From Isoetes taiwanensis (Eukaryota; Streptophyta; Lycopodiopsida; Isoetales; Isoetaceae), in contig JAJEKV010000046.1 of assembly GCA_021234155.1 (NCBI GenBank), positions 6,639,012-6,703,011 on the forward strand: a DNA stretch of 64,000 nucleotides, written 5' to 3'. The position numbers and the translations under genes are program-made. Shown in pieces: positions 1-53,347 of the stretch. The stretch's first letter is position 1. Every line of letters starts with the position of its first letter. Under the pieces are notes generated by a model. That model saw only the letters and a list, made by a program, of their open reading frames with translations, searched no databases and had not been told where the DNA came from.

Positions 1-184
1 AAGAAATCAATTCGCTACAAATGATAATATATACATTCATTAGGCCTCATCATATGGCTCACTACAATTCGCATAAGCTAAGAATATACCCCGCTCTTCT
101 TGACGAATTAGAGCTATTAAGGCCCCCAAATGTGATGCCACGATGTCCTTGGGAAGATACTGCGCAAACACATCAAAAAGTTCG

Positions 185-547
185 TTAATCCACATTATGC
201 TTCAAATAGTCCCATGAATATCGTAATTTCAGATGTACCTTGATTTGGCGATGAATTATTACAGGTGGAGAGCACAACATGGAGAGATATTCCGTAAGGA
301 TTCCAATAGAAATTGGCAAAAAATCAGAATTTGAGTCAAGAGAAAGATAGATGGCTAAATTCGTGGAAGAAATATACCCGCTTTTAAGTGACCATCGATG
401 AATCAGAGTTGTCCCATCTTTGAGATGGTGATTATAACTGCTATAGGCGAGCCCTCCCCATTCTCTAGACACTTGTTGAAGCTGGTAATCAAGCCCTATG
501 TTAAAATGTAACGATAAATCTCCAAGCCTATTTTTACTTGTTTGCAT
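185..547 (-). pseudogene. unidentified open segment downstream of the conserved exon (unit A1)
   Basis: A 120-codon minus-strand frame reading QTSKNRLGDLSLHFN at the start. In the other units this frame breaks or shifts (for example 7192-7521 in A3 with 109 codons, 3684-3980 in A2, 22858-23049 in A5). A further piece at about 6981-7150 in A3 and 45067-45236 in A8 reads SSQGHLWHHLTGDAIALIRQ. These look like successive exons of one gene transcribed leftward, but I recognise no domain. Confidence 0.3.
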
Positions 548-874
548 ATAGTTTTGCTAAAACCAGATACCAATCCTTCTGAAATAAATGATTTGCAACA
601 CTAGGCTGGTGAGGAATCTAGTAAACATCTTCAAGGCAAGCCTTTGACCTTGAGCAAAATACTAATTTACTTTATTATGAAATTCAGAAACACGCGCTCA
701 ATGTTTTATACATAAAAAAACCTTTTTAAATGCATGAAGATTTCCACCACAAGTCCCTTTCAGGCAAGGGACGCATTCAATGCCAACAGTTCTGTCCTCT
801 GGACAACACATAAAGGCCAACAATACTTCTAGTAACCTAGAACTTGAAGAGTCTATGGACACAAGTTAACTTAC

Positions 875-989
875 ATGAATAAAACGACGATTAACTACAT
901 GAAGCTTTCCATGGGTTTCAGCCAACTCCAACAGCCTTTTATGCATCACAATATTATGAGCCCTTTCTGGATCCACATCGAAGGCATAT
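875..989 (-). CDS. conserved 115-nt exon of an unidentified gene (unit A1)
   Basis: The minus strand shows a clean acceptor (TTTGCCTGCAG) and donor (CAT then GTAAGT) around a 115-nt open exon. It reads YAFDVDPERAHNIVMHKRL followed by LELAETHGKL. The DPERAH string resembles the N-terminal region of dihydroorotate dehydrogenases, but no other part of that enzyme is seen nearby, so I do not assign it. Other exon-like pieces lie downstream at about 720-860 and 230-540. This A1 copy differs from A2, A5 and A8 by a few residues near its end. Unknown function. Confidence 0.4.
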
Positions 990-1931
990 CTGCAGGCAAA
1001 GCCGATATTACAACTAAATAAGTGACGTGACTTTCTTAAACAAATTATTGTCAGCAAATACTACTTGGATGGCGTCTTACTCGGTCATTTAGAATGAGAA
1101 ACCTTCAAAAAGGACTCTATACATTGTCAACCTGTAAACTACTTATTTAATTTCAGGACATATGAAAAGAATGAGCCCAAAAGCTAATGGGTGCATTAGA
1201 GAGTAGTTCATCGTGCACATTTGCAGTCCTCTTCGCACTTATCTTCGCAAAGCATTAAAAAAAAAATGGTAAATGCAAGTCTTCATGCTTTTTTTTCCTT
1301 TTAGGAAAGAGCAACTAGCGTTCTCTGCAAGGAAAAGGGGATCGAATCATTATACAATCTTCCTTGTTTAAACAACAGAGAAGGATTATGTGCCATGCTA
1401 AGGAAGGAAGAGTGTTTCAGTCCCAGCAATTCGTGACAACTGCTAAAGTTGAGAGTGGGAAAGCTAGACCGAATTAACTAACCAATTAATGATGATACGT
1501 AAATTACAGTATTCCTAAAAAACGTTGTCAGTCAAGGTACCTAATAGGCAGCCGATGAAAATGGACCTGAAGTTCGTCTGCAGATACCATATCCGTCTCC
1601 TGTACACTACCTTCGTCAATAAGCTTCTGAAGAATTTCTTGAAAAACCATAAACTTTCTAGCCCCACAGATTTGAGATTGCCGGAGTAAAGCTTGTGGAT
1701 CCAGAGCTGGGCAGAGCTGCAGAAATCATGCTTGCATCCAAAGAGTTCAAAGAATGCGTACCAATGCAAGCTCCGAAATGAGAACGGCAAAGCTTTCCAT
1801 CATCAAGATCTAGGTCCTTTACGACTTCAATCAACCCTGCAGCAGATCAATTAATTACAGTTTAATACGCTATTCTAATTGTAGATTCTGAGCTTCACAG
1901 CTGCCATTTCTTGGCCTCTGGAGCACCTGCA

Positions 1932-2232: not shown

Positions 2233-4359
2233 AGAAGGAGATTCGACGGAGGAGATTGATTCAAAGCAGATAAGAACAAAAACGTGGCATCCCTATTTTT
2301 TTTTTCTTTTTTCTTCAATTTGAAAATGCAATGGGTGCATACGTGTCAGAGCCAGGGCTGCGCTCAGCCCAGAAAAATTACCTCCTATTTTTTAAGAACA
2401 GAAATGTTACTGCTTAGAAGAAATATCAACTAGAGGCCCTCCGTCATCAAAGTCAAGCAGAAGAAAATGTGAGCCAACAAAACGTGATCTCTCCCATTTA
2501 CACTATCCCCTCAAATGGTTCTACAAAGTAGAAGCTACCTCTTGTGACCCTAAATATCAGGTCAATTTTGCATATGAGGCCAACATCCAATCGTTGTATC
2601 AAGTCAAAGATTGTACGGTAGCCAATTGTTACTTGAACAACAATGGTAGAATAACTTATATAGAAAACAATGTACATGACCTTTCGCACATGCATTTACA
2701 TGAGTTTTCACACATAAATGCAGGCTTTGTGAGAAACAAAAAGTAAAAGTAAAGGCCATACAAAGAAGAAAATTACATAAAAAGAAAATTACATAAAAAG
2801 GACATTAAAACCAAAATGGTGAAGAGACCAAATATAGTTCAAGTGTTTCAACAATATCTCATTTATTTTATCGATTTTGCAACCTCAAATTGGAAAGCAT
2901 TTAACAACTTTTAAACATCATTTACAGCATAGCTTGTCTCTCTGCCAGCTTCTATCAAATACTGGCCAGTGAAAGCCCCAGGCCAGTGAAAACACCAGCC
3001 ACAGAAAGTTCAACTACAACGCTCACTTTCTAGCAAAAAAAATTCAAGTGCACCAAGCTGCCTCTTCATTTGGCTACAATCCAGGTTGATTATCCAATAC
3101 CATTTTCATCAATTTTTGGTTTGATAGGATAGAGAAAGAAACTGAAGTAGACTGCGGAATATGCTCGAAGCATAGGCCCAAACACCGATACCATCAATTA
3201 ATTTCTTGAGATGTTTTTTATCTAGATTTAAGCATAGCAATGGTCCAACCGTGATCTGCTTTAGGCAAGTTACTTGCATCAGTTGCTAATAACACGAAAC
3301 TAATTTTTTCTTGTAGTTGAACTGTAATGAGAAACATTTGAACCCTTTCCCATTTAACTAAGATCAGCACTCTGCATTAAACGAAGAGAAGAACGTGTCT
3401 TTTCACCCCTTTTCCCTTTCTTTCTTACATAAAAAAAGGCTTAACATTCCGTGATATTAAAGTGTGCCACGAGATGCAGAAATCAATTCGCTACAAATGA
3501 TAATATATACATTCATTAGGCCTCATCATATGGCTCACTACAATTCGCATAAGCTAAGAATATACCCCTGTTCTTCTTGACGAATTAGAGCTATTAAGGC
3601 CCCCAAATCAAAGTGATGCCACGATGTCCTTGGGAAGATATCACTGCAAACACATCAAAAAAGTTCGTTAACGACATTATGCTTCAAATAGTCCCATGAA
3701 TATCAGAATTTCTGTATGTACCTTGATTTGGCAGATGAATTATTACAGGGTGGAGAGCACAACATGGAGAGATATTCCGGTAAGGATTCCAATAGAAATT
3801 GGCAAAAATCAGAATTTGAGTCAAAGAGAAAGATAGATGGCTAAATTCGTGGAAGAAATATACCCAGCTTTTAAGTGACCATCGATGAATCGAGAGTTGT
3901 CCCATCTTTGAGATGGTGATTATAACTGCTATAGGCGAGCCCTCCCCATTCTCTAGACACTTGTTGAAGCTGGTAATCAAGCCCTATGTTAAAATGTAAC
4001 GATAAATCTCCAAGCCTATTTTTACTTGTTTGCATATAGTTTTGCTAAAACCAGATACCAATCCTTCAAATAAATGATTTGCAACACTAGGTCTGGTGAG
4101 GAATCTAGTAAACATCTTCAAGGCAAGCCTTTGACCTTGAGCAAAATACTAATTTACTTTATTATGAAATTCGTAAACACGCTACCAATGTTTTATACAT
4201 AAAAAACCTTTTAAATGCATGAAGATTTCCACCACAAGTCCCTTTTAGGCAAGGGACGCATTCAATGCCAACAGTTCTGTCCTCTGGACAACACATAAAG
4301 GCCAACAATACTTCTAGTAACCTAGAACTTGAAGAGTCTATGGACACAAGTTAACTTAC

Positions 4360-4474
4360 ATGAACAAAACGAAGATTAACTACAGGAAGCTTTCCATGGG
4401 TTTCAGCCAACTCCAACAGCCTTTTATGCATCACAATATTATGAGCCCTTTCTGGATCCACATCGAAGGCATAT
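4360..4474 (-). CDS. conserved 115-nt exon of an unidentified gene (unit A2)
   Basis: The same exon as in A1 with the same splice signals (CTGCAG acceptor, GTAAGT donor). The translation (38 codons, ending PVVNLRFVH) is identical to those of A5 and A8. A second exon-like frame at about 4210-4340 (SSSRLLEVLLAFMCCPED, then a cysteine-rich stretch) follows within about 20 bp, too short a gap for a normal intron, so the exon structure is unclear. Confidence 0.4.
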
Positions 4475-5421
4475 CTGCAGGCAAAGCCGATATTACAACT
4501 AAATAAGTGACGTGACTTTCTTAAACAAATTATTGTCAGCAAATACTACTTGATGGCGCCTTACTTGGCCATTTAGAATGAGAAACCTTCAAAAAGGACT
4601 CTATACATTGTCAACTCAGAAACTACTTATTTAATTTCAGGACATATGAAAAGAATGAGCCCAAAAGCTAATGGGTGCATTAGAGAGTAGTTCATCGTGC
4701 ACATTTGCAGTCCTCTTCGCACTTATCTTCGCAAAGCATTAAAAAAAAATGGTAAATGCAAGTCTTCATGCTTTTTTTTCCTTTTAGGAAAGAGCAACTA
4801 GCGTTCTCTGCAAGGAAAAGGGGATCGAATCATTATACAATCTTCCTTGTTTAAACAACAGAGAAGGATTATGTGCCATGCTAAGGAAGGAAGAGTGTTT
4901 CAAATCCCAAAGAATTGCGGACAACCGCTAAAGTTGAGAGTGGGAAAGCTAGACCGAATTAACTAACCAATTAATGATGATAATGAAATTACGAAGATTC
5001 CTAAAAAACGTTGTCGGGCCAAGGTACCTAATAGGCAAACCGATGAAAATGGACCTGAAGTTTGTCTGCAGATACCATATCCGTCTCCTGTACACTACCT
5101 TCGTCAATAAGCTTCTGAAGAATTTCTTGAAAAACCATAAACTTTCTAGCCCCACAGATTTGAGATTGCCGGAGTAAAGCTTGTGGATCCAGAGTCAAGG
5201 CAGTCAAGCAAAAATCATGCTTGCATCCAAAGAGTTCAAAGAATGCGTACCAATGCAAGTCTCCGAAATGAAAACGGCAAAGCTTTCCATCATCAAGATC
5301 TAGGTCCTTTACGACTTCAATCAACCCTGCAGCAGATCAATTAATTACAGTTTAATACGCTATTCTAATTGTAGATTCTGAGCTTCACAGCTGCCATTTC
5401 TTGGCCTCTGGAGCACCTGCA

Positions 5422-5584: not shown

Positions 5585-8500
5585 TCAAACTTGGCGACCT
5601 CCTACATCAAAGACTGAGCTATGGCGGACGCTGAGTTCGCAGAATGGGGCGAGGGAAGTGGAGAGCATTTGACGGTGTGAGAGCTGATCTCGCCGGAATG
5701 GGGCAGAGGAAGTGGAGAGCAGAGAAGGAGATTCGACGGAGGAGATTGATTCAAAGCAGATAAGAACAAAAAACGGCATCCCTATTTTTTTTCTTTTTCT
5801 TCAATTTGAAAATGCAATGGGTGCATACGTGTCAGAGCCAGGGCTGCGCTCAGCCCAGAAAAATTACCTCCTATTTTTTAAGAACAGAAATGTTACTGCT
5901 TAGAAGAAATATCAACTAGAGGCCCTCCGTCATCAAAGTCAAGCGTAAGAAAAAATGTGAGCCAACAAAACGTGATCTCTCCCATTTACACTATCCCCAA
6001 AATGGTTCTACAAAGTAGAAGCTACCTCTTGTGACCCTAAATATCAGGTCAATTTTGCATATGAGGCCAACATCCAATCGTTGTATCAAGTCAAAGATTG
6101 TACGGTAGCCAATTGTTACTTGAACAACAATGGTAGAATAACTTATATAGAAAACAATGTACATGACCTTTCGCACATGCATTTACATGAGTTTTCACAC
6201 ATAAATGCAGGCTTTGTGAGAAACAAAAAGTAAAAGTAAAGGCCATACAAAGAAGAAAATTACATAAAAAGAAAATTACATAAAAAGGACATTAAAACCA
6301 AAATGGTGAAGAGACCAAATATAGTTCAAGTGTTTCAACAATATCTCATTTATTTTATCGATTTTGCAACCTCAAATTGGAAAGCATTTAACAACTTTTA
6401 AACATCATTTACAAAGATAGCTTGTCTCTCTCGCCAAATTCTATCAAATCGCTGCTGAAAAAGCCCGTGCCGATTGAAAACACCAGCCACAGAAAGTTCA
6501 ACTACAACGCTCACTTTCTAGCAAAAAAACTTCAAGTGCACCAAGCTGCCTCTTCATTTGGCTACAATCCAGGTTGATTATCCAATACCATTTTCATCAA
6601 TTTTTGGTTTGATAGGATAGAGAAAGAAACTGAAGTAGACTGCGGAATATGCTCGAAGCATAGGCCCAAACACCGATACCATCAATTAATTTCTTGAGAT
6701 GTTTTTTATCTAGATTTAAGCATAGCAATGGTCCAACCGTGATCTGCTTTAGGCAAGTTACTTGCATCAGTTGCTAATAACACGAAACTAATTTTTTCTT
6801 GTAGTTGAACTGTAATGAGAAACATTTGAACCCTTTCCCATTTAAATAAGATCAGCACTCTGCATTAAACGAAGAGAAGAACGTGTCTTTTCACCCCTTT
6901 TCCTTTCTTTTCTTACATAAAAAAGGCTTAACATTCCGTGATATTAAAAGTGTGCCACGAGATGCAAGAAATCAAATTCGCTACAAATGATAATATATAC
7001 ATTCATTAGGCCTCATCATATGGCTCACTACAATTCTGGCATAAGCTAAGAATATACCCTGTTCTTCTTGACGAATTAGAGCTATTGCGTCCCCAGTCAG
7101 GTGATGCCACAGATGTCCTTGGGAAGATACTGCTGCAAACACATCAAAAAAGTTCGTTAACGACATTATGCTTCAAATAGTCCCATGAATATCAGAATTT
7201 CTGTATGTACCTTGATTTGGCAGATGAATTATTACAGGGTGGAGAGCACAACATGGAGAGATATTCCTGTAAGGATTCCAATAGAAATTGGCAAAAATCA
7301 GAATTTGAGTCAGTAGAAAGATAGATGGCTAAATTCGTGGAAGAAATATACCCAGTTTTTAAGTGACCATCGATGAATCGAGTTGTCCCATCTTTGAGAT
7401 GGTGATTATAACTGCTATAGGCGAGCCCTTCCCATTCTCTAGACACTTGTTGAAGCTGGTAATCAAGCCCTATGTTAAAATGTAACGATAAATCTCCAAG
7501 CCTATTTTTACTTGTTTGCATATAGTTTTGCTAAAACCAGATACCAATCCTTCTGAAATAAATGATTTGCAACACTAGGCTGGTGAGGAATCTAGTAAAC
7601 ATCTTCAAGGCAAGCCTTTGACCTTGAGCAAAATACTAATTTACTTTATTATGAAATTCAAAACACGCTAGCCAATGTTTTATACATAAAAACCTTTTAA
7701 ATGCATGAAGATTTCACCACAAGTCCCTTTCAGGCAAGGGACGCATTCAATGCCAACAGTTCTGTCCTCTGGACAACACATAAAGGCCAACAATACTTCT
7801 AGTAACCTAGAACTTGAAGAGTCTATGGACACAAGTTAACTCACATGAACAAAACGAAGATTAACTACAGGAAGCTTTCCATGGGTTTCACCAACTCCAA
7901 ATGTTCCTTTTTATGCATCACAATATTATGAGCCCTTTCTCGATCCACATCGAAGGTATATCCAGCAAAGCCCGATATTACAACTAAATAAGTGACGGAC
8001 TTTCTTAAACAAATTATTGTCAAGAAATACTACTTGGGTGGCGCTCTTACTCTTGGCCATTTAGAATGAGAAACCTTCAAAAGGACTCTATACATTGTCA
8101 ACCTCAGAACTACTTATTTAATTTCGGGACATATGAAAAGAATGAGCCCAAAAGCTAATGGGTGCATTAGAGAGTAGTTCATCGTGCACATTTGCGCCCT
8201 CTTCGCACTTATCTTCGCAGCATTAAAAAAAATGGTAAGTGCAAGTCTTCATGCTTTTTTTTTTTCCTTTTAGGAAAGAGCAACTAGCGCTTCTCTGCAA
8301 GGAAAAAGGACCCGTACATAAGAAAATAAAACGACCTTTGGGCGTGATCGAATCATTATACAATCTTCCTTGTTTAAACAATGAGAAGGATTATGTGCCA
8401 TGCTAAGGAAGGAAGAGTGTTTCAGTCCCAAAGAATTGCGACAAACCGCTAAAGTTGAGAGTGGGAAAGCTAGACCGAATTAACTAACCAATTAATGATG

Positions 8501-9899
8501 ATACGTAAATTACAAAGATTCCTAAAAACGTTGTCGGGTCAAAGGTACCTAATAGGCGTACCATGAAAATGGACTCGGTTCGCCTCACAGATACCATATC
8601 CGTCTCCTCGCACACTACCTTCACAATAAGCTTCAAGAATTTCTTGAAAAACCATAAACTTTCTAGCCCCACAGATTTGAGATTGCCGGAGTAAAGTTTG
8701 TGGATCCAGAGTCGGGCAGAGCGGTGCAGAAATCATGCTTGCATCCAAAGAGTTCAAAGAATGCGCACCAATGCAAGCTCAAAATGAGAACGGCAAAAAG
8801 CTTTCCATCATCAAGATCTAGGTCCTTTACGACTTCAATCAACCCCGTAGCGGATCAATTAATTACGCTTTAATACGCTATTCTAATTGTAGATTCTCGA
8901 AGCTTCCACCGTGCCATTTCTTGGCCTCCGAGCACCCAGATTAACAAATCCATACCCGACTTCCCAACTATGGGCATCGGATAAGGCATCGCCTCAGTTT
9001 CTTCTTGCTAAGGCTTAACAGTTGCAAGAAAAACACAGAAAACAAAGCTCCGGCATGGGTTGGTACTTCTTTTCCTCAAACTTGGCGACCTCCTACATCA
9101 TTTTTGAGCTATGGCGGACGCGGAGTTCGCAGAATGGGCGGAGAAGTGGAGAGCATTTGACGGTGTGAGAGCCGATCTCACGGAATGGGGCGAGAGGAAG
9201 TGGAGAGCGAGAAGGAGATTCGACCGGAGGAGATTGATTCAAAGCAGATAAGAACAAAAACGTGGCATCCGTATTTTTTTTTCTTTCACTACAAGAGAAT
9301 GACGATTTTTTGTCAGAAAAAGCGTCAGATGGTCTTCACAAAAAAGTAACCGCCTGCACCCCACCGATCGACGAATTATTCTGCCGCTTATTATCCGACG
9401 ATTGTGTCAAAAAGCGCCGAAAAAAGCGCCGCTTCTTCCGGACGCTTTAAATGTCGAAAAAGCGCCGCTCTTCCGGACGATTAAGTGTCGAAAAAAAGAA
9501 AAGCGCCGAAAAAAACGCGTGAAACGCCGAAAAAAGTCACAAATTTTTTGTTAGCATTTTCGTCAAAGAATGCATCAAAAATATTTTTGCTAGCATTTTT
9601 GTCAGGTTATTAGTCACATATATTCTTTTGGATTTACTTGCACTCTTAATCGAATCTAGTTGCATTCGCAATTGCATTCTTAGGATATGACGATGCTTAA
9701 ATTTACATGAATATATTTTACAAATTCATAAACAAGAGTATGAAAAATTTGAGATCCTTTATTCAAGTAGTAACTGTTACATGTCAAAAGGGATTGCAAC
9801 AAGGACTCAAACATATAAGCCCAAGCTTGTACATAGGAATTCAAGCACCAATTACCTGCAACCAATATAATTAGTAAGTAGCCTATGGGAATTTGCTGA

Positions 9900-12360
9900 A
9901 TTCAAAAAATAAAAAGCAATCTCACCGTTTAGCATTGAAGGTAAAGAGGGAGTAAAGACGATTTCCACAGCTTTGATGAGCTAGCCCCTTTAAGACATCA
10001 CAAAAACACATTATACGCCTATGAAAATATATTTGAGAGAACGCAATGTCAAGATGGACAACGTGGAGGAGATTTAGAAGAAGTAAAATTTCATAATCAC
10101 TAAACAATATAGAGATTGAAGTAACAATAAAAGTGATTCTATTTTGTTTGATCCCTTCTTGAGCAGCTGTAAGAACAAATCAAGAGCTCCATCAATAAAT
10201 CCACGACGATATTATGCACAGGCAGAGAATTTCAAGAGACTACCTTAAACATTTTCGCACCCTTGAAACTTCCACAGTTCTAAGTACCCGTCATTTCCGT
10301 CAAGGATATATATGCTGTGTAATAAAGGTTAAAGTGTAATAACTATTATTATGGGATCCCAACTAAACATTTACAATATAAAGACCAATCAACAATAGGA
10401 GGATCTATTTCCATAGGCACAAAGTGAAACATATGCAACCTGTTAGCATTGGACATACAAGTTTCCATGTTCAAAATCAATACGTCATAGGAATTCATCA
10501 TACCTCATCTTGATTAAAGGGGTTCCATTGCAAAGAGGCAAGCTTCTCACAATGGACAAAAATCTGCAATAAGTATGAATCCCTACCTGCACAAATAACC
10601 AAGTCAGAGAATGTTTTAGAAATATACAATAAGTCTTTTGTTGGTGGCTTGGGCATCCCAACTTGCCTTTTTATTTGAGAATTTGATACATGAAATTGTA
10701 CCAGGAATGGATGATTGTAAATCATCAACACAAGGTCTCTTAGTCGTAGATTGAGCGTGTCTCGACATTGCTTACAGCAGCCAAATAAACTCCCTGGAAT
10801 ACAAAGAAAATGCCATTTAGTGTTTTTCAATAGATCTGTTCACCTCGATCATGCCACCACATGTTCATTTGCAATTTGAAATTCAAAATCTGAGGATAGA
10901 AATGTCTATGCTTTATACATATCTAAACGACCCAGAAAAATCCACATGTGTGAACGGATTTACCTCCAAAAGAGCCAGGGAAAAATCATATGCCGCTGCC
11001 ATTGTCCAAGAAAAACCATATGTGTAAAGCACAAACAGAGCTTCTGTAGGTAATGCTCATACTTTGTGCTTGAGTTTCTCATATCCAGCAAATCCAGTCT
11101 CAATCTGTTTATGCTCATGCTGGCCCTGTGTTAGTCAATAAAGATGCCCTATGTTATTTCTATTTAGAAATTAAATTAAATATGCCTTCGTGCTACCTCA
11201 CTTCAGTCTCAAACGAATAAGAAGAAACCTGGGGACTTAGCTTTCCAAATTGCTAAACATGTAGTTATGGCCATTAATTCTAGCAAATCCAGCTCAACAC
11301 TTAGCTTTCCAAATTGCTAAACATGTAGTTATGGCCATTAATTTTCGCAAATCCAACTCAACAGGAACTCGGTCTATCAGCATTTACCATTATGCATTTG
11401 GCACTTTAAGAAACCAGAAAAGCAGTATTTCTATTATCTTACATTCCATGGAATTCTATCATGATAATCAAAACCATTCATGTCTTAGAAGTATATTCAA
11501 ATTGGCATGAAACATTACCATGAAAGCTAAACATTTTTCAACCTGAATAGAAGCATGAAAGCTTGTTCTTGCCTCATATCCAAGGACATATGTATTTATT
11601 AGTTTAACTTAATAGAAATACTTGCAACCATAAAATTTTACATGGCCGGAACTAAACATTACCACAGGCTAACCTGAATATATGCGCTCCACAATAATTA
11701 TTAATATTGCTGCCATTAGAGTGTCCACACTGCAGAGAGTTGTAACAGAGGACTAAGTCCAGAAAAGCAAACTCCAATTTGCCACAGCTATGGAATCATT
11801 TTCGGATTTGGCAGGCCCATTTTTGGATATCTGTTCAGCCCATTTATGAGCATATAAGATCATTTTCAGAACATCTTTCAAAAACCTTATCTCTTTTTCC
11901 AATGAAGCACATAATCTTGCAAAGGCTTCACATTCTATATCATAAATTAATTCTCAAATTTAAAATTGTATAACCATAAGGACTGACCTGGTTTTTTTGC
12001 TCCAAGCTTCTAAATTTTGTCATGATCTGGCACAACCGAATAGAAGCCCAACAGCCAGCCGTTTTTGCAGAGGTCTCCATCACCTTGTTGCAAATGAACT
12101 TTTATCAAATACCTCTTATCAGATATCTTATCTGAGGCCCAAAGCAGGATTCGGGACCTGAATGCCATCAACGGATCTTTTTTAGGGCTATTAGCCTCAC
12201 AAATGTCATGAAGTGATATTCGAACTGCAAGATTAGGACTTAAAATTTCAGTTTCGGCCACATGAGCCATAATCGTCTTTCCACGACATCTGTTGTGGCC
12301 TTCTATCTGCCCAGACATGCTGTTGGCGCCAGAGCTCCTGTCCTCAAATCGTAGGGTTTA
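9900..12360 (-). pseudogene. captured host-gene fragment (possibly WD40) inside CACTA 1
   Basis: On the minus strand several exon-like pieces lie inside the transposon. A 102-codon frame at 12010-12318 includes AETEILSPNLAVRIS and WASDKISDKRYLIK. A segment near 10660-10710 can be read as GTISCIKFS, one at 10504-10560 as KLASLQWNPFNQDE (preceded by a TTTGTGCAG acceptor and followed by GTATGA), and one at 10246-10318 as ILDGNDGYLELWKF. The last three have the look of WD40 repeat strands (xLWxF, xSCIKFS, xLxWNP). The frame assignment between pieces is uncertain and there are stops, so this is a fragment, not a gene. The parent gene is not identified. Confidence 0.45.
11236..11363. repeat. 64-bp tandem duplication inside CACTA 1
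   Basis: The segment starting CTTAGCTTTCCAAATTGC occurs twice in a row with a 64-bp period. The same duplication is present in the other three CACTA copies (about 19000-19120, 33750-33880 and 41518-41645), so it predates their amplification. Confidence 0.85.
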
Positions 12361-39830: not shown

Positions 39831-40199
39831 GTTAGCATTTTCGTCAAAGAATGCATCAAAAATATTTTTGCTAGCATTTTTGTCAGGTTATTAGTCACAT
39901 ATATTCTTTTGGATTTACTTGCACTCTTAATCGAATCTAGTTGCATTCGCAATTGCATTCTTAGGATATGACGATGCTTAAATTTACATGAATATATTTT
40001 ACAAATTCATAAACAAGAGTATGAAAAATTTGAGATCCTTTATTCAAGTAGTAACTGTTACATGTCAAAAGGGATTGCAACAAGGACTCAAACATATAAG
40101 CCCAAGCTTGTACATAGGAATTCAAGCACCAATTACCTGCAACCAATATAATTAGTAAGTAGCCTATGGGAATTTGCTGAATTCAAAAAATAAAAAGCA

Positions 40200-42640: not shown

Positions 42641-43519
42641 TTTACACGTTAATGCCCTAAGTCCAAATGCATTGACAAGGTCTAAAATTTCCTTGAATCA
42701 TAGTGGATTATAGTATCCCATTAGCATTGCTTGTACAAAGCCACAATTGGCCCTTTTTCAACACACTTTCGGCACCACCAAAGATATAGCACATTTTATG
42801 GCTTTTTCCGTTAGAAACTTGCTTTTTGCAAACAAACTCAATTCTCGAAGCATATAACGGTCCAAACTTTTGCACATTGCAGAAACACTATTGAAAGGAA
42901 AGGAAAGGAAACCCCAAAATAAATTAATAGCATCATTAAATAATGTAAGAGCTTGTTTGTAGTAATATTCCCCTCTTCCGGACAAGTTTAAGCCATACAT
43001 ACAAGTGACCTATACATGTAATTTTAAGCTTAGTCCAAAGGATACCAAGTTATTTGCACAAAATCATAATAATTTCTAATATCATTCTCAAATCTATAGA
43101 TATTCACCAATTAGCCCCTTAAGCCTTTAGCTACTAACAAATATGGCTAGTGCCTTGCATTTTAGGCAATCTAAGAACATGGATGCCACCATGGCACAGT
43201 GGCATAAATTGGCCTTGATTTGGAGCTCGGTAGGATTTAAAGAGCTATGCAAAGAGTTCCAGAAAATATACAACTCTAGTATCTTGAGCATGTGATATGG
43301 GAGTTCTAGACCTCTCATAACAGCATGAGCTTCACACGTGCTATATCTAGCCCTTGTGTCGCAGCTCAAACCTATAATACTAGCTAGAGATGGAAATTTA
43401 TAGATTCAATTAAGGATCAACAAGTTTTAGGGGAAGATAGCTTTTCAAAACATCAAATTCCATCTAAAAAATACTCTTGGATGAAATGTTATGATTAAAA
43501 TTGTAATAGTGTTATCTTC

Positions 43520-43897
43520 TGACCAATGATCTGACGCACTTTCTGATGCTAAATCTGACACAAAATCTAACGAAACATCTGACGCTTTTCCTGACGCTTT
43601 TTCTGATGTAAAAATATACTTCCTTCCTTCCTTCCTTCCTTCTGACGCTTATTCTGACGTATTTTCTGACGCTTTTTCTGACGTTACATTTCTGACGATT
43701 TATGTGATGCATAACCTGACGTATACTTTCTGACGCTTAATCAGACGAAATATCTGACGTAAAATCGTCAGAAAAAGCGTCAGAAAAAGCGTCAGAAAAA
43801 TAATCGTCAGTTTAGTCGTCAGCGTAAACGTCAGGCAAAAATCTCTCTAGACAGTCTGATGCTTTTTTTTACAATAAACAGTCATTCTCTTGTAGTG
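43520..43897. repeat. CACTA 3' subterminal repeat array (best-preserved copy)
   Basis: An array of TCTGACGC-type motifs ending in the inverted terminus CTCTTGTAGTG. Equivalents lie at 13237-13583, 20995-21360 and 35740-36093. The array has a (TTCC)n insertion at 43609-43641 and an AT-rich gap before the last 40 bp. Confidence 0.85.
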
Positions 43898-45936
43898 TTT
43901 TTTCTTCAATTTGAAAATGCAATGGGTGCATACGTGTCAGAGCCAGGGCTGCGCTCAGCCCAGAAAAATTACCTCCTATTTTTTAAGAACAGAAATGTTA
44001 CTGCTTAGAAGAAATATCAACTAGAGGCCCTCCGTCATCAAAGTCAAGCAGAAGAAAATGTGAGCCAACAAAACGTGATCTCTCCCATTTACACTATCCC
44101 CTCAAATGGTTCTACAAAGTAGAAGCTACCTCTTGTGACCCTAAATATCAGGTCAATTTTGCATATGAGGCCAACATCCAATCGTTGTATCAAGTCAAAG
44201 ATTGTACGGTAGCCAATTGTTACTTGAACAACAATGGTAGAATAACTTATATAGAAAACAATGTACATGACCTTTCGCACATGCATTTACATGAGTTTTC
44301 ACACATAAATGCAGGCTTTGTGAGAAACAAAAAGTAAAAGTAAAGGCCATACAAAGAAGAAAATTACATAAAAAGAAAATTACATAAAAAGGACATTAAA
44401 ACCAAAATGGTGAAGAGACCAAATATAGTTCAAGTGTTTCAACAATATCTCATTTATTTTATCGATTTTGCAACCTCAAATTGGAAAGCATTTAACAACT
44501 TTTAAACATCATTTACAGCATAGCTTGTCTCTCTGCCAGCTTCTATCAAATACTGGCCAGTGAAAGCCCCAGCCACAGAAAGTTCAACTACAACGCTCAC
44601 TTTCTAGCAAAAAAAATTCAAGTGCACCAAGCTGCCTCTTCATTTGGCTACAATCCAGGTTGATTATCCAATACCATTTTCATCAATTTTTGGTTTGATA
44701 GGATAGAGAAAGAAACTGAAGTAGACTGCGGAATATGCTCGAAGCATAGGCCCAAACACCGATACCATCAATTAATTTCTTGAGATGTTTTTTATCTAGA
44801 TTTAAGCATAGCAATGGTCCAACCGTGATCTGCTTTAGGCAAGTTACTTGCATCAGTTGCTAATAACACGAAACTAATTTTTTCTTGTAGTTGAACTGTA
44901 ATGAGAAACATTTGAACCCTTTCCCATTTAAATAAGATCAGCACTCTGCATTAAACGAAGAGAAGAACGTGTCTTTTCACCCCTTTTCCCTTTCTTTCTT
45001 ACATAAAAAAAGGCTTAACATTCCAGATATTAAAGTGTGCCACGAGATGCAGTAAATCTGAATTCGCTACAAATGATAATATATACATTCATTAGGCCTC
45101 ATCATATGGCTCACTACAATTCTGGCATAAGCTAAGAATATACCCTGTTCTTCTTGACGAATTAGAGCTATTGCGTCCCCAGTCAGGTGATGCCACAGAT
45201 GTCCTTGGGAAGATACTGCTGCAAACACATCAAAAAAGTTCGTTAACGACATTATGCTTCAAATAGTCCCATGAATATCAGAATTTCTGTATGTACCTTG
45301 ATTTGGCAGATGAATTATTACAGGGTGGAGAGCACAACATGGAGAGATATTCCTGTAAGGATTCCAATAGAAATTGGCAAAAATCAGAATTTGAGTCAGT
45401 AGAAAGATAGATGGCTAAATTCGTGGAAGAAATATACCCAGTTTTTAAGTGACCATCAGATGAATCAGAGTTGTCCCATCTTTGAGATGGTGATTATAAC
45501 TGCTATAGGCGAGCCCTTCCCATTCTCTAGACACTTGTTGAAGCTGGTAATCAAGCCCTATGTTAAAATGTAACGATAAATCTCCAAGCCTATTTTTACT
45601 TGTTTGCATATAGTTTTGCTAAAACCAGATACCAATCCTTCTGAAATAAATGATTTGCAACACTAGGCTGGTGAGGAATCTAGTAAACATCTTCAAGGCA
45701 AGCCTTTGACCTTGAGCAAAATACTAATTTACTTTATTATGAAATTCAGAAACACGCGCTCAATGTTTTATACATAAAAAAACCTTTTTAAATGCATGAA
45801 GATTTCCACCACAAGTCCCTTTCAGGCAAGGGACGCATTCAATGCCAACAGTTATGTCCTCTGGACAACACATAAAGGCCAACAATACTTCTAGTAACCT
45901 AGAACTTGAAGAGTCTATGGACACAATTTTACTTAC

Positions 45937-46051
45937 ATGAACAAAACGAAGATTAACTACAGGAAGCTTTCCATGGGTTTCAGCCAACTCCAACAGCCTT
46001 TTATGCATCACAATATTATGAGCCCTTTCTGGATCCACATCGAAGGCATAT
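45937..46051 (-). CDS. conserved 115-nt exon of an unidentified gene (unit A8)
   Basis: Same exon and acceptor. Downstream of the donor this copy differs from the others (ACAATTTTACTTAC on the plus strand), which removes an in-frame stop and lets the frame run on into the SSSRLLEVLLAFMCC segment, giving a 119-codon frame over 45760-46119. Whether the gene is functional is not decidable. Confidence 0.4.
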
Positions 46052-47025
46052 CTGCAGGCAAAGCCGATATTACAACTAAATAAGTGACGTGACTTTCTTA
46101 AACAAATTATTGTCAGCAAATACTACTTGGGTGGCGTCTTACTCGGTCATTTAGAATGAGAAACCTTCAAAAAGGACTCTATACATTGTCAACCTGTAAA
46201 CTACTTATTTAATTTCAGGACATATGAAAAGAATGAGCCCAAAAGCTAATGGGTGCATTAGAGAGTAGTTCATCGTGCACATTTGCAGTCCTCTTCGCAC
46301 TTATCTTCGCAAAGCATTAAAAAAAAATGGTAAATGCAAGTCTTCATGCTTTTTTTTCCTTTTAGGAAAGAGCAACTAGCGTTCTCTGCAAGGAAAAGGA
46401 CCCTGTACATAAGAAAATAAAACGACCTTGGGCAGGATCGAATCATTATACAATCTTCCTTGTTTAAACAACGAGAGAAGGATTATGTGCCATGCTAAGG
46501 AAGGAAGAGTGTTTGAGTCCGAAGAATTGCGTGACAAGCTGCTAAAGTTGAGAGTGGGAAAAGCTAGACCGAATTAACTAACCAATTAATGATGATACGT
46601 AAATTACGGTATTCCTAAAAAACGTTGTCGATCAAGGTACCTAATAGGCGGGGCGATGAAAATGGACCTGAAGTTAAATTAGATGGATACCATATCCGTC
46701 TCTCAGTACACTACCTTCGTCAATAAGCTTCAAGAATTTCTTGAAAAACCATAAACTTTCTAGCCCCACGATTTGAGATTGCCGAGTAAAGCTTGTGGAT
46801 CAGTTTGTCAAGGAGCCGAAAATCATGCTTGCATCCAAAGAGTTCAAAGAATGCGTACCAATGCAAGCTCAAAATGAGAACGGCAAAAGCTTTCCATCAT
46901 CAAGATCTAGGTCCTTTCGACTTCAATCAACCTACGGCGAATCAATTAATTCGGTTTAATACGATATTCTAATTGTAGATTCTCGAGCTTCACGGTACCC
47001 ATTTCTTGGCCTCTGGAGCACTGCA

Positions 47026-47187: not shown

Positions 47188-48814
47188 TCAAACTTGGCGA
47201 CCTCCTACATCAGCACCTGAGCTATGGCGGGACGCGGAGTTCGCAGAATGGGGCAGAGGAAGTGGAGAGCATTTGACGGTGTGAGAGCTGATCTCGCCGG
47301 AATGGGGCAGAGGAAGTGGAGAGCAGAGAAGGAGATTCGACGGAGGAGATTGATTCAAAGCAGATAAGAACAAAAACGTGGCATCCCTATTTTTTTTCTT
47401 TTTTCTTTAATTTGAAAATGCAATGGGTGCATACGTGTCAGAGCCAGGGCTGCGCTCAGCCCAGAAAAATTACCTCCTATTTTTTAAGAACAGAAATGTT
47501 ACTGCTTTATATATTGTATGAAAGATATTTAACATAATAAAAATATAAAATCAAGTATGAGTAATAAAAATCCCCGTCACTTTTAAAATTCCATCGGAAA
47601 TTCCCTACTATTGTAAATTTAGATCATGCAATTTGCCAGATTTTTTTTGTTTGAACTAACTTCCGGAACATTCACACATCAACTGGAAAAAATTTATGCT
47701 GCAAACTGAAATTTATGCTGCAAACCGGAAATTTAGGAGACTAACTCCGTGTTTTGCGAAGCCTAAGTGTGTGTGTGAGAACAAAGAAGAAGAAGAGATT
47801 TTAACGTATAGCGTGGCGTTGGCGTGAGCAAGCATGGACAAAGCGTGGCTTCTTGCGTGGGCTGTGAGCGTGGCTCTGTTATGAGCGTGGCCCGTGGACC
47901 GTGGAAAGCACCGTGACCCTAGTGTGGGCCTGATCTGACGCGCCCGTGGACGCCCTGAGCGTGACCATAAAAGTGGCATACCTCAGCCATTGATCTTGGG
48001 CGGCTTCATCGTGGCCGTCGAACCAGAAATCCCTAAAATTTCTTTACTCTGTTCCAGCAGTGCGGCTTTGTGATCGAAAGTTGATCTGTAAAGAATCTGA
48101 AGCGGAATAGCATAGAAAAGTTGCTTTATTTGCCTGTGTCTGCAGGATGGGCGGCCGGATTTGGTGCAACATAGACTAAGGTGGCCAGGAATCTTTAATG
48201 TTGCTAAATCTGAATGCCTGGGCCGGATATGGTGCTGGATTTAGGTCTGCCATAGATAGGAAGTGGCCAGGATGTGTTATAACGAAGTTATCTTGAAGAA
48301 ACCGATGGCGGTGGGTGCATGGTGTTGCCCTGCTTTAACTTTGCAGAATAGAGATCTAATAGATAGAATAGCCCGTAATTTGATGCTGCACAAGACTGGA
48401 CTGTGCTCCTCAAAGATTGCAGAGTTTTTTTTCTTAACCCATGAAGATATTTACTTGTTTTGCAGATGAGACGAACCAGAAAGCCGACCTGATGCTTGCT
48501 TGAAGACTTGGCTGCAGCCTGCTTCTCGTGAGCAAATGAATGGGGGCTAGCCACAATGCTGCTGGCCCTCTTAAAAATTTTCAAGAAGAATGCATACAGG
48601 CAGGAAGCAAACGTGTTTACAGATAGTGCAGGAATAACTCCAGGAACAAGCTGTGTGCTTGAGCAAGAAGCTGGTGTCGACTGCAAATAATAGCATGATG
48701 TTTCAAGGACTCTGTAATGCTGAAGGTGCTTGCTGCCTATTCGTGATATGCTTTGAGAAACGATGCTTACTTGAATCGTTCTTGAACTGTGCTTTCTGGC
48801 AGGTGATGCAGATG

Positions 48815-48920
48815 AAGGGGTTAAACCCCCTTTAGAGCCCATTACGGCAAATAAATGGGCGAGCCCGGAGGGGCGAGCCCATTTATTTTGCCGTAATGGG
48901 CGAGAAAGGGGTTTGACCCT
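48815..48920. repeat. GC-rich hairpin (module B2)
   Basis: The counterpart of the hairpin at 26256; the right arm is a few bases shorter (GTTTGACCCT versus GTTTGACCCCTTT). Confidence 0.85.
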
Positions 48921-49441
48921 AACCCGGGGGGTCCGAGACTGCTTTAGCAGCTACAAGGAAAATTTGCATCAGCGGAGCTCTGGTTTAAGCAGAGATTTAA
49001 GCTCCAAGATCAGCGATTTAAGCTCCAAGATCAGCGCAATCGTCATGGCGTTAGAACCTTGTTTTTGACAAAGTTTTTGCTACCATGACCAAACAAAATC
49101 AGGCGCAGCCATGGCCCAGCTGCACAAACAAATCCATTCAAAAGGCTGAACGGCATAAAACAGGGTCTGAATGGAATACAGTACCCTAAACCCTTCAAAA
49201 GCATTCCGGTTCAGAGCTCGGCTTTAGTAGGTAGTAGATCGGTTTGGTCGAAAATGGGCTACAGAGGAGAAATGCTAGGGTTTGGATGATCTGCGGGCGA
49301 TTTTGGAGCTTGGCGGCAGCTGCGGCTATGGCAGCCTCTGCAACATGCTCTACCTTGATTTTGTTTTTTTGTCAAGATGCTTCAAGATGGCCGGCCAGAG
49401 CTCCGTCTTCGCTGAGATGCTGATATTTGATAGTTGAGATG

Positions 49442-49894
49442 GGCGTGGGATAGTTTTACCCTTGATTGGGGGATCCCGGAGGTGTGATCCCGGAGGACGG
49501 GATCCCCCACGACGTGTGATCCCGGAGGACGGAATCCCCCTTACTGCGCAGTAACTGCGCATTTTTTGGCCCTTGAAAGAAAAAATGGGGCAGATTTCGT
49601 GTGGGATTTTCTCCCTTGATCCGCAACCAAATCGAATGGGGTCAGTTCGAGGATGGTCGGAATGGGCTGGATCAGAGGGGCAGGTAGGAGCAAAGGAGGA
49701 ATCAAAGCGAGGCCCGCTGTAATCAGGAAGCTTCAATCCGGCCGAAAATCAGCCCTAAACTGCGCAGTAACCCATTAACTGCAAGTAGCTTGGATCGTGT
49801 GATCCCTGGAGGATCGGATCTTTTTCCCGATGGTGATCCCGAGAACGGATCACCACCTCCGGATCCCCAATCAAGGGTAAAACTATCCCATGCC
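49442..49894. mobile_element. Mutator-like non-autonomous element (module B2)
   Basis: The second copy, with the same 9-bp flanks (49433-49441 and 49895-49903). The right half (49790-49870) shows many small differences from B1, concentrated at CTG/CAG and CCGG-type sites. Confidence 0.88.
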
Positions 49895-50263
49895 GTTGAG
49901 ATGCTTGGCGGCGGTTTTATCAAGATAAACGACCAAGCGGATGGTTTATCAAAATAAACAGTAGAATATGAGCCAAGTACGGCTAATAATTGATTTCAAT
50001 CTAACGGCTAGGATCTAAAGTAGTCGAGGAACCGCCGGTTAAGAAAAAAGGAACGAGTATCATCCATGTAAATTTGAGACTTGAACGGACTCATAGGGGC
50101 TAGTCAAAGCCAAGGGCTTTCGATTAATAAAGAGCTCTAAATTTGAAATCGCAGCTCTGCACGGTTTTGGAGCTTACTCGTCAGGTACTACACAGATCAC
50201 CACAGGGATTAAAAGGGGGCTAGCTGATTGCTGGCCCTCTAGAAATAATCGGAAGAAGAAATC

Positions 50264-51524
50264 GGCTAGTTTTCGGTTTACAGCCCCCCCTTGACGTGGC
50301 CAAATTGTCCACCGTGGCAGTTTTTTTTGATGGCGGACGAACGGGCGACGAAAATCTCTTCGCTAGCACAACGGTACAGTGAATTTAACGCAGTTCCTTT
50401 GTGTTTAATACACACGAGGGTTGTTCAAAAGAGCCGGCGAATCCACTCCACTCATCCATCCGATCACGCGCAAATCACTGCAATGGCTCCAGAAGAGGAG
50501 ACTTTCGGTTTACATTCTTTGCTCTTGTTCTGTCTGGTTTTTCTGTTTTGCCCAGTTCATTGTTTCATTGCATTTCTTCCTATCTCATTGCATTTCTTCC
50601 TCCATTCAATGGCATTGGACTTCAGCAATTCCAATGCCAATATCACTACCATGCAATAGTTGCTTGCAAGAACTGCTACCAAAGATCAGACAATTGCATT
50701 TTGCATCCACATTGGCATGCTGCCTGAACGAAGAGATTGTGAAAAATGTGGAAAAACAATGAAGCTAAGAGGAGACAACAGGGGAACGAAGGATTGGAAT
50801 GAAATGGAAGTGCAAAGGAAAGAGATGCAACTTCCAATGTTCGCTTCATAGAGGTACCTGGTTCCACAGGTAGTATATTATTTTCCATTATATTGCGCCA
50901 GGTAGTATTATCTACAGTGATTGTTGGGCTGGCTACGATTCAGAATGGTTGTCACAGTTGGAATATCAACATTATACTGTGAATCACTCCCAACACTTTA
51001 AAGATCCAATCACAGGAGTGCATACTAATAGAATAGAATCAACATGGGGAGCAGTAAAGAAATCCTTGCCATGCTACGGTACTGTTAAGGCATTGTATGA
51101 ATCATACTTCTTTGAGTACATGTGGAGAAAACGATTTGTTAAAGTGAAGAATGAGGCATTCAATGTTTTATGTGATCATGTGAGAATGTATAACAGGGAT
51201 GTTTTGAATGGCCCTGAGGAGGTCTAAGTCAAGAAAATCTGAATTTTCTGTATCTTATTCTGTGTCAATATCTGAATGTTCTGAATTTACAGTTTTTCTG
51301 TCATTGCTGTTTCTTGGGTTATCGGGTTGCCACAGAAATGGTGTTTTCGGGTTCTCGGGTTGCCACCGAAATGGTGTTTTTGGGTTCACGGGTAGCCGTT
51401 TTTGGTGTTCAATAAACAGTTCCACCTGATGTCGCGAAGCATATACACAGTTGAAAAGCGAAGCATATAAATGTCCACGGTGGACAATTTGGCCACGTCC
51501 GGGGCTGTAAACCGAAAGTCTCCC
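50264..51524. mobile_element. Merlin-type DNA transposon remnant (module B2)
   Basis: The second copy with the same AAGAAATC flanks (50256-50263, 51525-51532). The right end here reads GGGGCTGTAAACCG, matching the left end better than B1 (GGGGCCAGAAACCG). Confidence 0.85.
50660..51227 (+). pseudogene. Merlin (IS1595/ISXO2-like) transposase, broken, B2
   Basis: The better preserved copy. The zinc ribbon (CEKCG ... CKGKRCNFQC) and GTWF are followed by a TAG stop and, in the same frame, IAPGSIIYSDCWAGY with the second catalytic aspartate, then YTVNHSQHF and GVHTNRIESTWGAVKKSLP with the last catalytic acidic residue, then a basic helix to the stop at 51227. The open part is 50949-51227, extending in frame upstream to about 50880. 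A normal Merlin transposase is roughly 270-330 residues; here roughly 100 residues between zinc ribbon and second aspartate are missing. Confidence 0.85.
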
Positions 51525-52470
51525 AAGAAATCTTCATAAAAATCTTGAAATACCCTGCTGAATGTGCTGCATGAGTTCCATAATTCTGTTTTTTTTACTG
51601 TGCAAAAGCACAAATTTTCTGATAAATCAAGATAAAGCAGAAGAGAACAAAGAAACAATCATGATTTTTCTGATAATATTTTCAGCAGAAAGAAGAGAGA
51701 AAAATGGGATCAAATACTTGATTTTCCTGATATTTTTGCAGAGAGGAGTGCTGTCACCACTCCAGAAATCCGTGACTGTTGTAAAACTATGCTTGCTTCA
51801 ACATTAAAGACCGAGTTTTGAAAACTATTTTTATAACAAGACTAATTGCTAACGAATTGATTGACAAAGGGGCCTCCAACCGGACCATTTTAACAACTGG
51901 TTGGGCTGAATAAAGGATTTTGAAGGGTTGAGAGTAATGTACAAGGAGTATTCAAAAACTGATGAAGATAAGAGCAGCAAGGACAACAACAAAACAACAA
52001 GGCTCAAGAAAGTGATCACGATGGAACACGGCCAAGGACAACAACAAAACAACAAGGCTCAAGAAAGTGATCACGAGGGAACACGGCATAATGGCGCCAC
52101 TGATAATTGTGAGTTCTTGGCATACACCCTGCAACAGCAGTCTATGACTGCCGGATGCTACAAGGCTGCCATGCTCATGATCACAAAACAAGAACAAGAA
52201 AAAAAATATGTACAAAGGGTGAAGGGAACGTGGCCAAATGAGGCTCTCCAAATTTGAGAAACAACCTGAGTACATCTGAAGAGGCTCCAGTCTAATATAG
52301 TGTAGACCAGCAAATCTGAGCCCTGCATCTAGCTAAATCTAAGCCCTACACTTATGTTAACCTAATCATGCCAAGTGTCGTCTGCCACCACTGACACCTA
52401 GCATGTGCACGATGTTAACCACTAGGTGGTTAACATGGTTTTATTGGCACCCGATTTGGGTTGGACTCCA

Positions 52471-52913
52471 ATGGAAACCTCCCCAACTTTCCATGGAAAT
52501 CTCCCCACTTTTCCGTGGAAACCTCCCCAACTTTCCGTGGAAACCCCCCAGTCTTCCTAGAACCTCACCAACTTTCCATGGAAACCTCCTCCAATTGGAG
52601 AGACTTCCACTTTAGAAAATGGGGGTGGTTTCCATGGAAATCTCCCCAGCTTTCTCTGGAAACCTCCCCAATTTTCTTGGCACAACTTGGGGAGGTTTTC
52701 GAATAAGAAAACAGGGGAGGTTTCCACGAAAAATGGGGGAGGTTTCCATTGAAAAAAAACCATCCATTTGCACGAAGACAAAGATTCATGCCCGTGCGCC
52801 TCGATCCATGAAAGTTATCCACCTCGATGGTTGCGTAAATTAATTACTCTTTCTTTTTGTAAATATTCCATGGAAACTTCCCCAGCTTTCTAAAGAAACT
52901 AAGGGAACTTTCC
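52471..52913. repeat. GGAAACCTCCCC repeat cluster (module B2)
   Basis: The same cluster as at 29907 with very few differences. Confidence 0.8.
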
Positions 52914-53026
52914 ATAAAATATCTATAAGAGCTGACATTTTATTGAGTTTATCATCATTTTGAGCTCTTCATCAAGTTCTTTATCAAATCAAGTATAATT
53001 CCAGCCAAGATTTCATCTTTGTTCCT

Positions 53027-53347
53027 TTGATACTGCTATTTTTCTCATGGATTTGGATCTCTATGGTCGAGCCCGTAGTGGAAACCCAAGTAGGTTCAAC
53101 AAAGACGCTTCGAGAAGTTACGCTGGCACTTGTGAGGGAGAAGCAAGATATACTTGAAAAGTGGGTCAGGATGACAGCTGCAGGACTTGCAAGGGTAGAA
53201 GTGGCAAATGAGGCGGAGCTCGAGCAAATCATCCAAGAAGTCCAACATGTGCATCGACAAAGCCACGTGAACATCACAACTATCCGAATCCCTCTAATAT
53301 GGCGCGTCCATATTACATCCTTGGGTGCTCCTCTAATCTGTATGTAA
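53027..53347 (+). CDS. unidentified small ORF across the B2/unique boundary
   Basis: A 106-codon frame with a hydrophobic start (LLFFSWIWISM) and a helical, charged middle (TLREVTLALVREKQDILEKW, then LEQIIQEVQHVH). In B1 the same frame is cut at the duplication junction after the residues QVGST. Its continuity across 53100 is the reason for treating the right side as the original context. No family recognised; it could be part of a larger gene or retroelement. A poly-T and AT-rich leader (52850-53020) precedes it. Confidence 0.3.
   Translation: MILLFFSWIWISMVEPVVETQVGSTKTLREVTLALVREKQDILEKWVRMTAAGLARVEVANEAELEQIIQEVQHVHRQSHVNITTIRIPLIWRVHITSLGAPLICM

Follow-up and report, generated by a model that had tools for sequence, protein, structure and literature searches.

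Among the closest described systems, the Dcm motif CCWGG accounted for ~70% of the consensus errors in K. pneumoniae with the nanopore models then current (Wick et al. 2019, PMC6591954). In Listeria, errors were reported at GCAGC and GCTGG, both of which contain a CWG, and whole-genome amplification significantly improved quality (PMC10687267). A further study considers it likely that basecalling becomes less accurate when methylation differs, and names plant methylation in this context (PMC9749173). Here we describe near-identical repeat copies in a plant assembly that differ from one another mainly at CAG/CTG (CWG), and we consider it likely, with a probability of about 0.85, that these differences arose when a nanopore-type basecaller miscalled cytosines methylated in CHG context, the errors persisting at places to which short reads could not be assigned. 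Both the methylation and the sequencing platform are things we infer, from the context specificity of the changes and from the published precedent.

The window, a stretch of 64,000 nt, comes from Isoetes taiwanensis (GCA_021234155.1, contig JAJEKV010000046.1, positions 6,639,012-6,703,011 of the forward strand). A tandem repeat spans positions 1-53100, and all copies given below lie on the plus strand. A 22.5-kb tandem duplication has its first copy at 8029-30535 and its second at 30534-53100; the two align at 95.2% across 22.8 kb (22,817 alignment columns), with further copies nested inside. Six copies of one unit, a (2307-4821), b (5794-8306), c (13584-16065), d (21361-23838), e (36094-38579) and f (43898-46399), retained 55, 51, 32, 29, 19 and 66 of 74 CWG clusters, respectively, e thus being the most and f the least altered; any two of the six differ in between 74 and 244 columns of the alignment per 2.5 kb. 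Four copies of a CACTA-like element with terminal inverted repeats CACTACAAGAGAATGAC, g (9287-13583), h (17050-21360; the most altered), i (31793-36093) and j (39559-43897), retained 103, 51, 89 and 76 of 131 clusters. The right end of copy i (~35800-36090) was altered, and that of copy j (43637-43897) was nearly unaltered, with 1 of 18 CWG sites deviating from the majority of dispersed copies. The window has 28 stop-to-stop frames of at least 110 aa, 10 of which were scanned against Pfam; a papain-family exon at 57442-57786, outside the duplication, was the single match. An Rfam search of the window yielded no match.

A preliminary description of this DNA had claimed that copies differ mainly at CAG/CTG sites, and both of its examples were found in the sequence: ACACAGAAAAC near 2050 versus ACACGTAAAAAC near 5542, and TCTGACG units at 43640-43720 versus TCCGACG, TCGACG and TCTCGACG in 35790-35920. 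The check proposed there, in which the repeat copies are aligned and their discrepancies tabulated by trinucleotide, revealed clear CWG enrichment. With each copy taken in turn as the reference, the results pooled, and 300 circular shifts of the discrepancy track used as the null, CAG/CTG differed in 50/378 instances in the two-copy alignment (null mean 6.3%, maximum 9.5%), 267/319 with four copies (null 21.9%, maximum 30.1%), 234/252 with six (null 23.8%, maximum 31.3%) and 187/196 with eight (null 39.3%, maximum 48.5%). Among the 32 strand-collapsed triplets, CAG/CTG ranked first in the six-copy set (references a and f) and in the four-copy set, and third in the two-copy set, after CGC/GCG and CCG/CGG. 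Discrepancy clusters contained a CWG in 54/102 cases with six copies (null 8%), 101/157 with four (null 11%) and 37/64 with two (null 19%), the others being of homopolymer-length, CG or unclassed type. CCG/CGG was likewise enriched (142/178 with four copies), partly because the errors themselves create CG words. The word "mainly" thus stands, and exclusivity to CAG/CTG does not. The scoring assumes a polarity, any site being counted as CWG if at least one copy showed it; in the six-copy set, CWG was present in a single copy at 10 of 74 clusters, some of which may be error-made.

Within altered patches, CAG/CTG was changed in 278 of 325 cells, CCG/CGG in 22/56 (39%), other CG triplets in 81/223 (36%), and the remaining C/G triplets and A/T-only triplets in 274/3557 and 98/1505, respectively (7-8% pooled); these counts, like those by CCWGG and by flank class below, leave out non-CWG triplets up to four columns from a CWG and any cell whose flanking states were mixed. 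CCWGG was altered in 10/12 cells and other CWG in 268/313. CMT3-type methylation acts on CHG and prefers CWG over CCG, and the excess of CWG over CCG/CGG follows that order, albeit indirectly, as it is read from errors. Cytosines in CG outside CHG were altered about as often as those in CCG, an observation that speaks against the methylation reading in that a CpG-trained basecaller should read CG better. A plain weakness of the basecaller or assembler at CAG/CTG in these data, independent of methylation, would be in keeping with the generally poor consensus indicated by the homopolymer errors that altered patches also hold. However, CAG/CTG was altered in all 16 flank classes, at 72-100% in each, whereas CAA, CAC, CAT and CCA were altered at just 3-8% in the same patches. 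Alteration of one motif whatever its flanks is a hallmark of modification-induced nanopore errors, and a preference for C-W-G, then CCG and CG, regardless of flanks is a methylation context that would be unexpected from a k-mer fault. Together with the Listeria precedent, where modification was blamed for errors at CWG-containing motifs and quality rose significantly upon amplification (PMC10687267), this renders an error independent of methylation unlikely.

The CG words standing in place of CAG were CGA, CGT or CG, and those in place of CTG were CCG or TCG. CG was gained in 332 cells, lost in 13 and unchanged in 193 (n = 538), the gain exceeding that of shuffled words (mean 235, maximum 263); the gain of AA (132) was slightly above its shuffle maximum of 129, a minor point against the proposed explanation. 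Sites with a block of more than 19 columns between conserved columns were dropped from these counts and shuffles. Recurrence of wrong words was assessed at isolated CWG sites only (316 cells at 147 sites kept). Of 303 same-site pairs, 122 were identical. Such recurrence of one wrong word at a given site, in places independent of each other, observed as well in 41 of 73 5S rDNA copies (below), is a second hallmark of modification-induced nanopore errors. It was weaker across sites, the same change recurring in 37/610 (CAG) and 37/430 (CTG) pairs of different sites sharing a 6-mer, compared to 302/12433 and 551/11055 pairs with different 6-mers. A fixed dictionary of wrong words per 6-mer was rejected given the weakness of this effect; local sequence has but a loose influence on which wrong word appears, and this tells against the proposed explanation.

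The same damage was found in conserved rRNA arrays, where it falls on the same triplets as in the window repeats. Among 73 copies of 5S rDNA, the true sequence of which is conserved, 41 carried CATCGAACT in place of CATCAGAACT, and 22 carried CATCAGAACT. Nine of the 72 copies retained for analysis were intact, one of the 73 having been dropped at <55% identity. In the ITS/5.8S region, located with a 5.8S rRNA query, one locus (L015) reads TTGCGTAAC where four others (L010, L011, L013 and L014) read TTGCAGAAC. In plants, CHG methylation is present in silenced repeats and absent from expressed gene bodies. The 16 full-length histone H4 genes, out of 43 H4-like matches, were intact, with 139 CWG, without internal stop and with 99-100% identity to the query. 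Repeats and rDNA are thus damaged and H4 genes undamaged, a pattern that polishing alone would yield identically.

The 20 dispersed ends of the CACTA-like element that were fetched, selected from 34 scored non-window places ranked with an unaltered query, kept the motif and held one damaged-type word in total (L037); the four window copies of this end held 7, 1, 1 and 0. Two identical-looking dispersed copies on one contig (C1027; L042 and L043) were both clean, which tells against the proposed explanation. An altered query retrieved largely the same places and some others, including a short contig, C467, whose element end was damaged. Among the 40 candidates scored per search, no clean near-identical partner of C467 was found, the best whole-query matches reaching 88% and 84% and shorter pieces 97-99%; damage in the absence of such a partner among the scored candidates speaks against the proposed explanation. 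The plastid was considered as an unmethylated, unpolished control and set aside. Two long Photo_RC matches were obtained, on the 34.6-kb contig C840 and on C1068, and no near-identical copy of the 5 kb around the C840 match was present among the scored candidates.

As the preliminary description had also claimed, alterations come in patches and fall on both members of a duplicate pair at different places. Adjacent sites shared their state in 405/520 pairs with four copies (shuffle maximum 324), 306/438 with six (shuffle maximum 287) and 224/336 with eight (shuffle maximum 222, barely exceeded). In the two-copy region, altered runs occupied 28993-29347 of the first copy (28993-29080 and 29191-29347) and 49827-50470 of the second (49827-49940, 49973-50115 and 50414-50470), the CWG sites being retained in the partner each time. 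Such patchy states, differing between copies, might be taken to mean that the miscalls are delimited by real methylation borders, altered sites being methylated and unaltered ones unmethylated, a reading that overlaps with ours except in the origin of the patches. Yet errors in homopolymer length, which methylation gives no reason to expect, track the same patches. In the six- and four-copy sets pooled, to which the test was confined, A/T runs were off their modal length in 16/45 cells of altered patches versus 5/75 of unaltered ones (Fisher p = 1e-4). The effect was strong with six copies (10/20 versus 1/36) and weaker with four (6/25 versus 4/39); counts in the two-copy set, which like the eight-copy set was excluded from the pooled test, were 1/2 versus 2/35. 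Altered patches thus appear to be unpolished raw consensus. Furthermore, alteration was rarer with two copies (44/422 CWG cells) than with four (205/524), six (192/444) or eight (150/344), although this comparison is confounded by the two-copy region being GC-richer and possibly genic. Real methylation borders are therefore a very unlikely origin of the patches. The copy-number trend itself is a step from two to four copies followed by a near-flat course (10, 39, 43 and 44%) rather than a steady rise, which counts somewhat against the proposed explanation.

Methylated cytosine does mutate, and C>T/G>A alone accounted for 52 of the 76 altered CWG cells at the 20 dispersed ends (374 cells in all); real mutation of methylated CWG in this transposon-rich duplicated array, be it hypermutation or deamination, is nonetheless extremely improbable. 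In the window, where changes had been described as complex rather than simple C-to-T and proved to be so, C>T/G>A alone made up 64 of 620 changes against 158 length changes and 96 CTG>CCG or CAG>CGG. The observed/expected ratio of CpG was higher in the altered copy e (0.79) than in copy f (0.45) instead of lower, leaving the deamination signature of transitions with CpG/CHG loss unseen, and a single wrong word was common to the 41 5S copies. The differences are thus very probably sequencing-consensus errors and not genomic variation.

The earlier reading of modified-cytosine miscalls left unpolished is supported, C467 excepted, by the CWG enrichment, the rRNA damage, the clean H4 genes and 20 dispersed ends, and the homopolymer errors. 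Mechanistically, the cytosines at altered CWG sites would be 5-methylcytosines in CHG context, of the CMT3 type known from silenced plant repeats. If the basecaller's training DNA held 5mC almost only before G, a modified CWG signal would be read as a CG word. Short-read polishing would have cleared errors wherever reads could be placed, and among near-identical copies reads may go to the least damaged draft copy, such that one copy would end up clean and its sisters raw, patch by patch. This last step is a proposal, a site altered in every copy being invisible to the comparison. As patch borders appear to be set by polishing, an altered site suggests modification and an unaltered one is uninformative, which suggests a one-sided methylation record. 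The notion that the sequence itself records where CHG methylation lies accordingly holds to the extent that an altered site hints at modification, and fails as a simple record because the patch borders seem to be those of polishing. The warning that apparent frameshifts here are suspect was justified.

Errors of this kind would mislead duplication dating, pseudogene calls, 5S/ITS variant counts and CpG studies in this assembly. Conversely, checking near-identical copies for CWG depletion and CpG gain offers an inexpensive way to spot methylated DNA that escaped polishing in other plant assemblies; where methylation data are lacking, the pattern also hints, in one direction only, at CHG methylation. 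There is an even chance that this extends to nanopore-built plant assemblies in general, in which methylated CAG/CTG in unpolished repeats would be written as a CG word, the basecaller having met 5mC only before G, leaving CWG depleted, CpG inflated and frames and rRNA copies broken, in a one-sided record from which, by inversion, methylation could be estimated with no need of raw reads.

Compared to the Dcm errors of Enterobacteriaceae (PMC6591954), the proposed errors are alike in that models not trained on 5mC misread it within a C-W-G core, and in that the misreadings persist in the consensus and make up a large share of errors, and unlike in that the bacterial motif is CCWGG, whereas here CWG is affected generally, in apparently unpolished copies of a large, repeat-rich, plant-like genome. 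With the Listeria errors (PMC10687267) they share a systematic nature, a centring on CAG/CTG words and persistence after polishing; those errors, however, are reported from motif-specific bacterial systems as mainly mismatches with a mechanism said to be unclear, whereas the window errors are CHG-wide and consist of complex words, often with a change in length. A plant precedent (PMC9749173) likewise ties lower nanopore accuracy in plants to methylation that the model has not learned; its main text does not contain the terms CHG, CAG, k-mer or trinucleotide, and it does not appear to describe the context or the wrong words.

The window (C1052:6639012-6703011 of G000, an assembly of 1.66 Gb in 1110 contigs, probably from a plant) harbors a 22.5-kb tandem duplication (8029-30535 and 30534-53100, 95.2% identity) inside which shorter units are nested. 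Each block carries two elements with terminal inverted repeats CACTACAAGAGAATGAC and subterminal repeats TCTGACGC, which we take to be CACTA-like (9287-13583, 17050-21360, 31793-36093 and 39559-43897); alteration extends to one right-hand terminal inverted repeat (21343-21360), which reads AATATTT where the other three have AATGACT. A papain-family cysteine protease exon (PF00112; 57442-57786, minus strand, E 2.9e-26) lies beyond the duplication, and an irregular array of GAATCTAAGA-type units occupies 56207-56454. Four sets were aligned: two copies (24846-30534 and 47402-53100), the four CACTA-like elements, six copies of a 2.5-kb unit and eight copies of a 0.95-kb unit.

With CWG (CAG/CTG) status given to any site showing CWG in at least one copy, pooled discrepant CAG/CTG sites numbered 50/378, 267/319, 234/252 and 187/196 in the sets of two, four, six and eight copies, respectively. 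The preliminary description had placed the copy differences mainly at CAG/CTG, in patches, and both points were borne out: the counts exceeded the maximum of 300 circular shifts in all four sets, CAG/CTG being the top-ranked variable triplet in the six- and four-copy sets and third in the two-copy set, and altered runs of at least three sites covered 26-742 columns. Only 6 of the 74 CWG clusters of the six-copy unit were retained by all six copies, copy f retaining 66 and copy e 19.

Altered patches were defined by the flanking CWG sites, the site itself being excluded. Within them, changes affected CAG/CTG (278/325), CCG/CGG (22/56), other CG (81/223), other C/G triplets (274/3557) and A/T-only triplets (98/1505), compared to 26/817, 0/190, 3/616, 29/11739 and 18/4100, respectively, in unaltered patches. 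CAG was changed at 72-100% in each of 16 flank classes, and CAA, CAC, CAT and CCA at 3-8%; the highest triplet lacking CG or CHG was GAA/TTC (38/210). CAG was most often miswritten as CGA, CG, CGT, CAA, CGC or CGG, and CTG as CCG or TCG. Of 538 altered cells (one site in one copy), 332 acquired a CG, 13 lost one and 193 showed no change in CG, the gains outnumbering those of shuffled words (mean 235, maximum 263); AA gain was likewise slightly above its shuffles. Altered copies are thus poorer in CWG and richer in CpG. As had also been proposed, the changes are complex rather than simple C-to-T, only 64 of 620 consisting solely of C>T/G>A.

The copy differences in the window are not real variation, and the same damage is found in rDNA. 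The 5S rRNA sequence is conserved and its true form therefore known, the intact copies being the best-scoring Rfam matches. In 5S arrays with a unit of ~350 bp (loci L007, L008 [C13:282000-301999] and L009 [C907:40700000-40709999]), CATCAGAACT was intact in 22/73 copies and replaced by CATCGAACT in 41/73, while GAATAGTACTGGGATG was intact in 15/73 and replaced by AATCTTGGG or AATCTTTGGG in 34/73. Damage lay mostly at or beside CAG, CTG, CCG and CG-rich words, leaving TGGGTGACCT almost untouched. As 63 of 72 retained copies were not intact, any tally of 5S variants or pseudogenes based on this assembly would be wrong. One ITS/5.8S copy on C964 reads TTGCGTAAC where the other four aligned copies have TTGCAGAAC; these four also differ from one another, in part by C/T changes. 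On the same contig, an 18S rRNA match (L014, C964:510475-512942) spans 2.47 kb for a 1831-position model, reflecting either damage or an insertion.

The 16 full-length genes among 43 H4-like matches have 139 CWG sites, all frames open and 99-100% identity. In 20 ends of the CACTA-like element taken from 34 places scored outside the window, TCTGACG units were retained throughout (3-11 apiece), with one damaged-type word in all, compared to 7, 1, 1 and 0 in the four window copies. CWG was changed in 76/374 cells there, 52 of the 76 by C>T/G>A only; genuine decay thus differs in form from the window changes. An exact damaged-type 21-mer occurs at three sites genome-wide (one on C467, two on C663), none in the window, and its intact form at 51. 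The short contig C467 bears similar damaged words (e.g., CGCCGGGCTTAG replacing CGTCAGTTTAG), CAG/CTG again being high upon comparison with related copies, and is apparently unpolished; several 500-base stretches at 33000-39000 of this 104-kb contig (L052) are low in CWG and raised in CpG. The 34.6-kb contig C840 (L054) has a 360-aa open frame matching the photosynthetic reaction centre family (Photo_RC, PF00124; C840:13288-14169); the 5 kb around it had no long match above 87% elsewhere among scored candidates, and the contig may be organellar or foreign DNA. In this analysis the artefact was confined to copies of near-identical sequence, to rDNA arrays and to at least one short contig.

A/T runs away from CWG were off their modal length in 16/45 cells of altered vs 5/75 of unaltered patches (six-copy set, 10/20 vs 1/36; four-copy set, 6/25 vs 4/39; pooled Fisher p 1e-4, the cells not being fully independent). 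Such errors are predicted by missing polish, not by methylation. The altered share of CWG cells (10%, 39%, 43% and 44% with two, four, six and eight copies) rises in a single step from two to four copies and is flat beyond; with a two-copy region that is GC-richer and perhaps differently methylated, the trend is no more than suggestive. By way of illustration, Pilon polishing of the maize A188 assembly used --minmq 40 (PMC8188678), a value at which ambiguously placed reads are discarded.

Behind the context, form, recurrence and patchiness of the CWG changes and the controls, all directly observed, CWG cytosines would carry 5mC in the CHG context, and a nanopore-type basecaller behind the consensus would write modified CWG as CG owing to a training prior. 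CG outside CHG was altered about as often as CCG, which counts against the training prior, as it is unpredicted unless further assumptions are added; so does, against the mechanism, the weak determination of the wrong word by the surrounding 6-mer. Two seemingly identical dispersed copies on C1027, both clean, and the damaged copy on C467, for which no near-identical partner was found among scored candidates, also count against the proposed explanation. The preliminary interpretation holds in substance; the methylation map that it proposed is one-sided.

The copy differences in the window are a sequencing artefact of an already known general kind. No account of a plant assembly in which miscalls affect CHG sites at large and take the form of CG was found in the open literature as far as accessible, nor is the phenomenon mentioned in the available portions of PMC8514461, PMC11971355 and PMC10095996; as far as this search reached, the CHG-wide, CG-creating form is new. 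How methylation affects accuracy in plants is described in general terms in the parts available (PMC9749173, PMC7501810). Judging from similarly partial texts, precedents for the CWG errors of the window are provided by errors at Dcm CCWGG sites in bacteria (PMC6591954) and at CWG-containing motifs in Listeria, where quality was significantly better after whole-genome amplification (PMC10687267).
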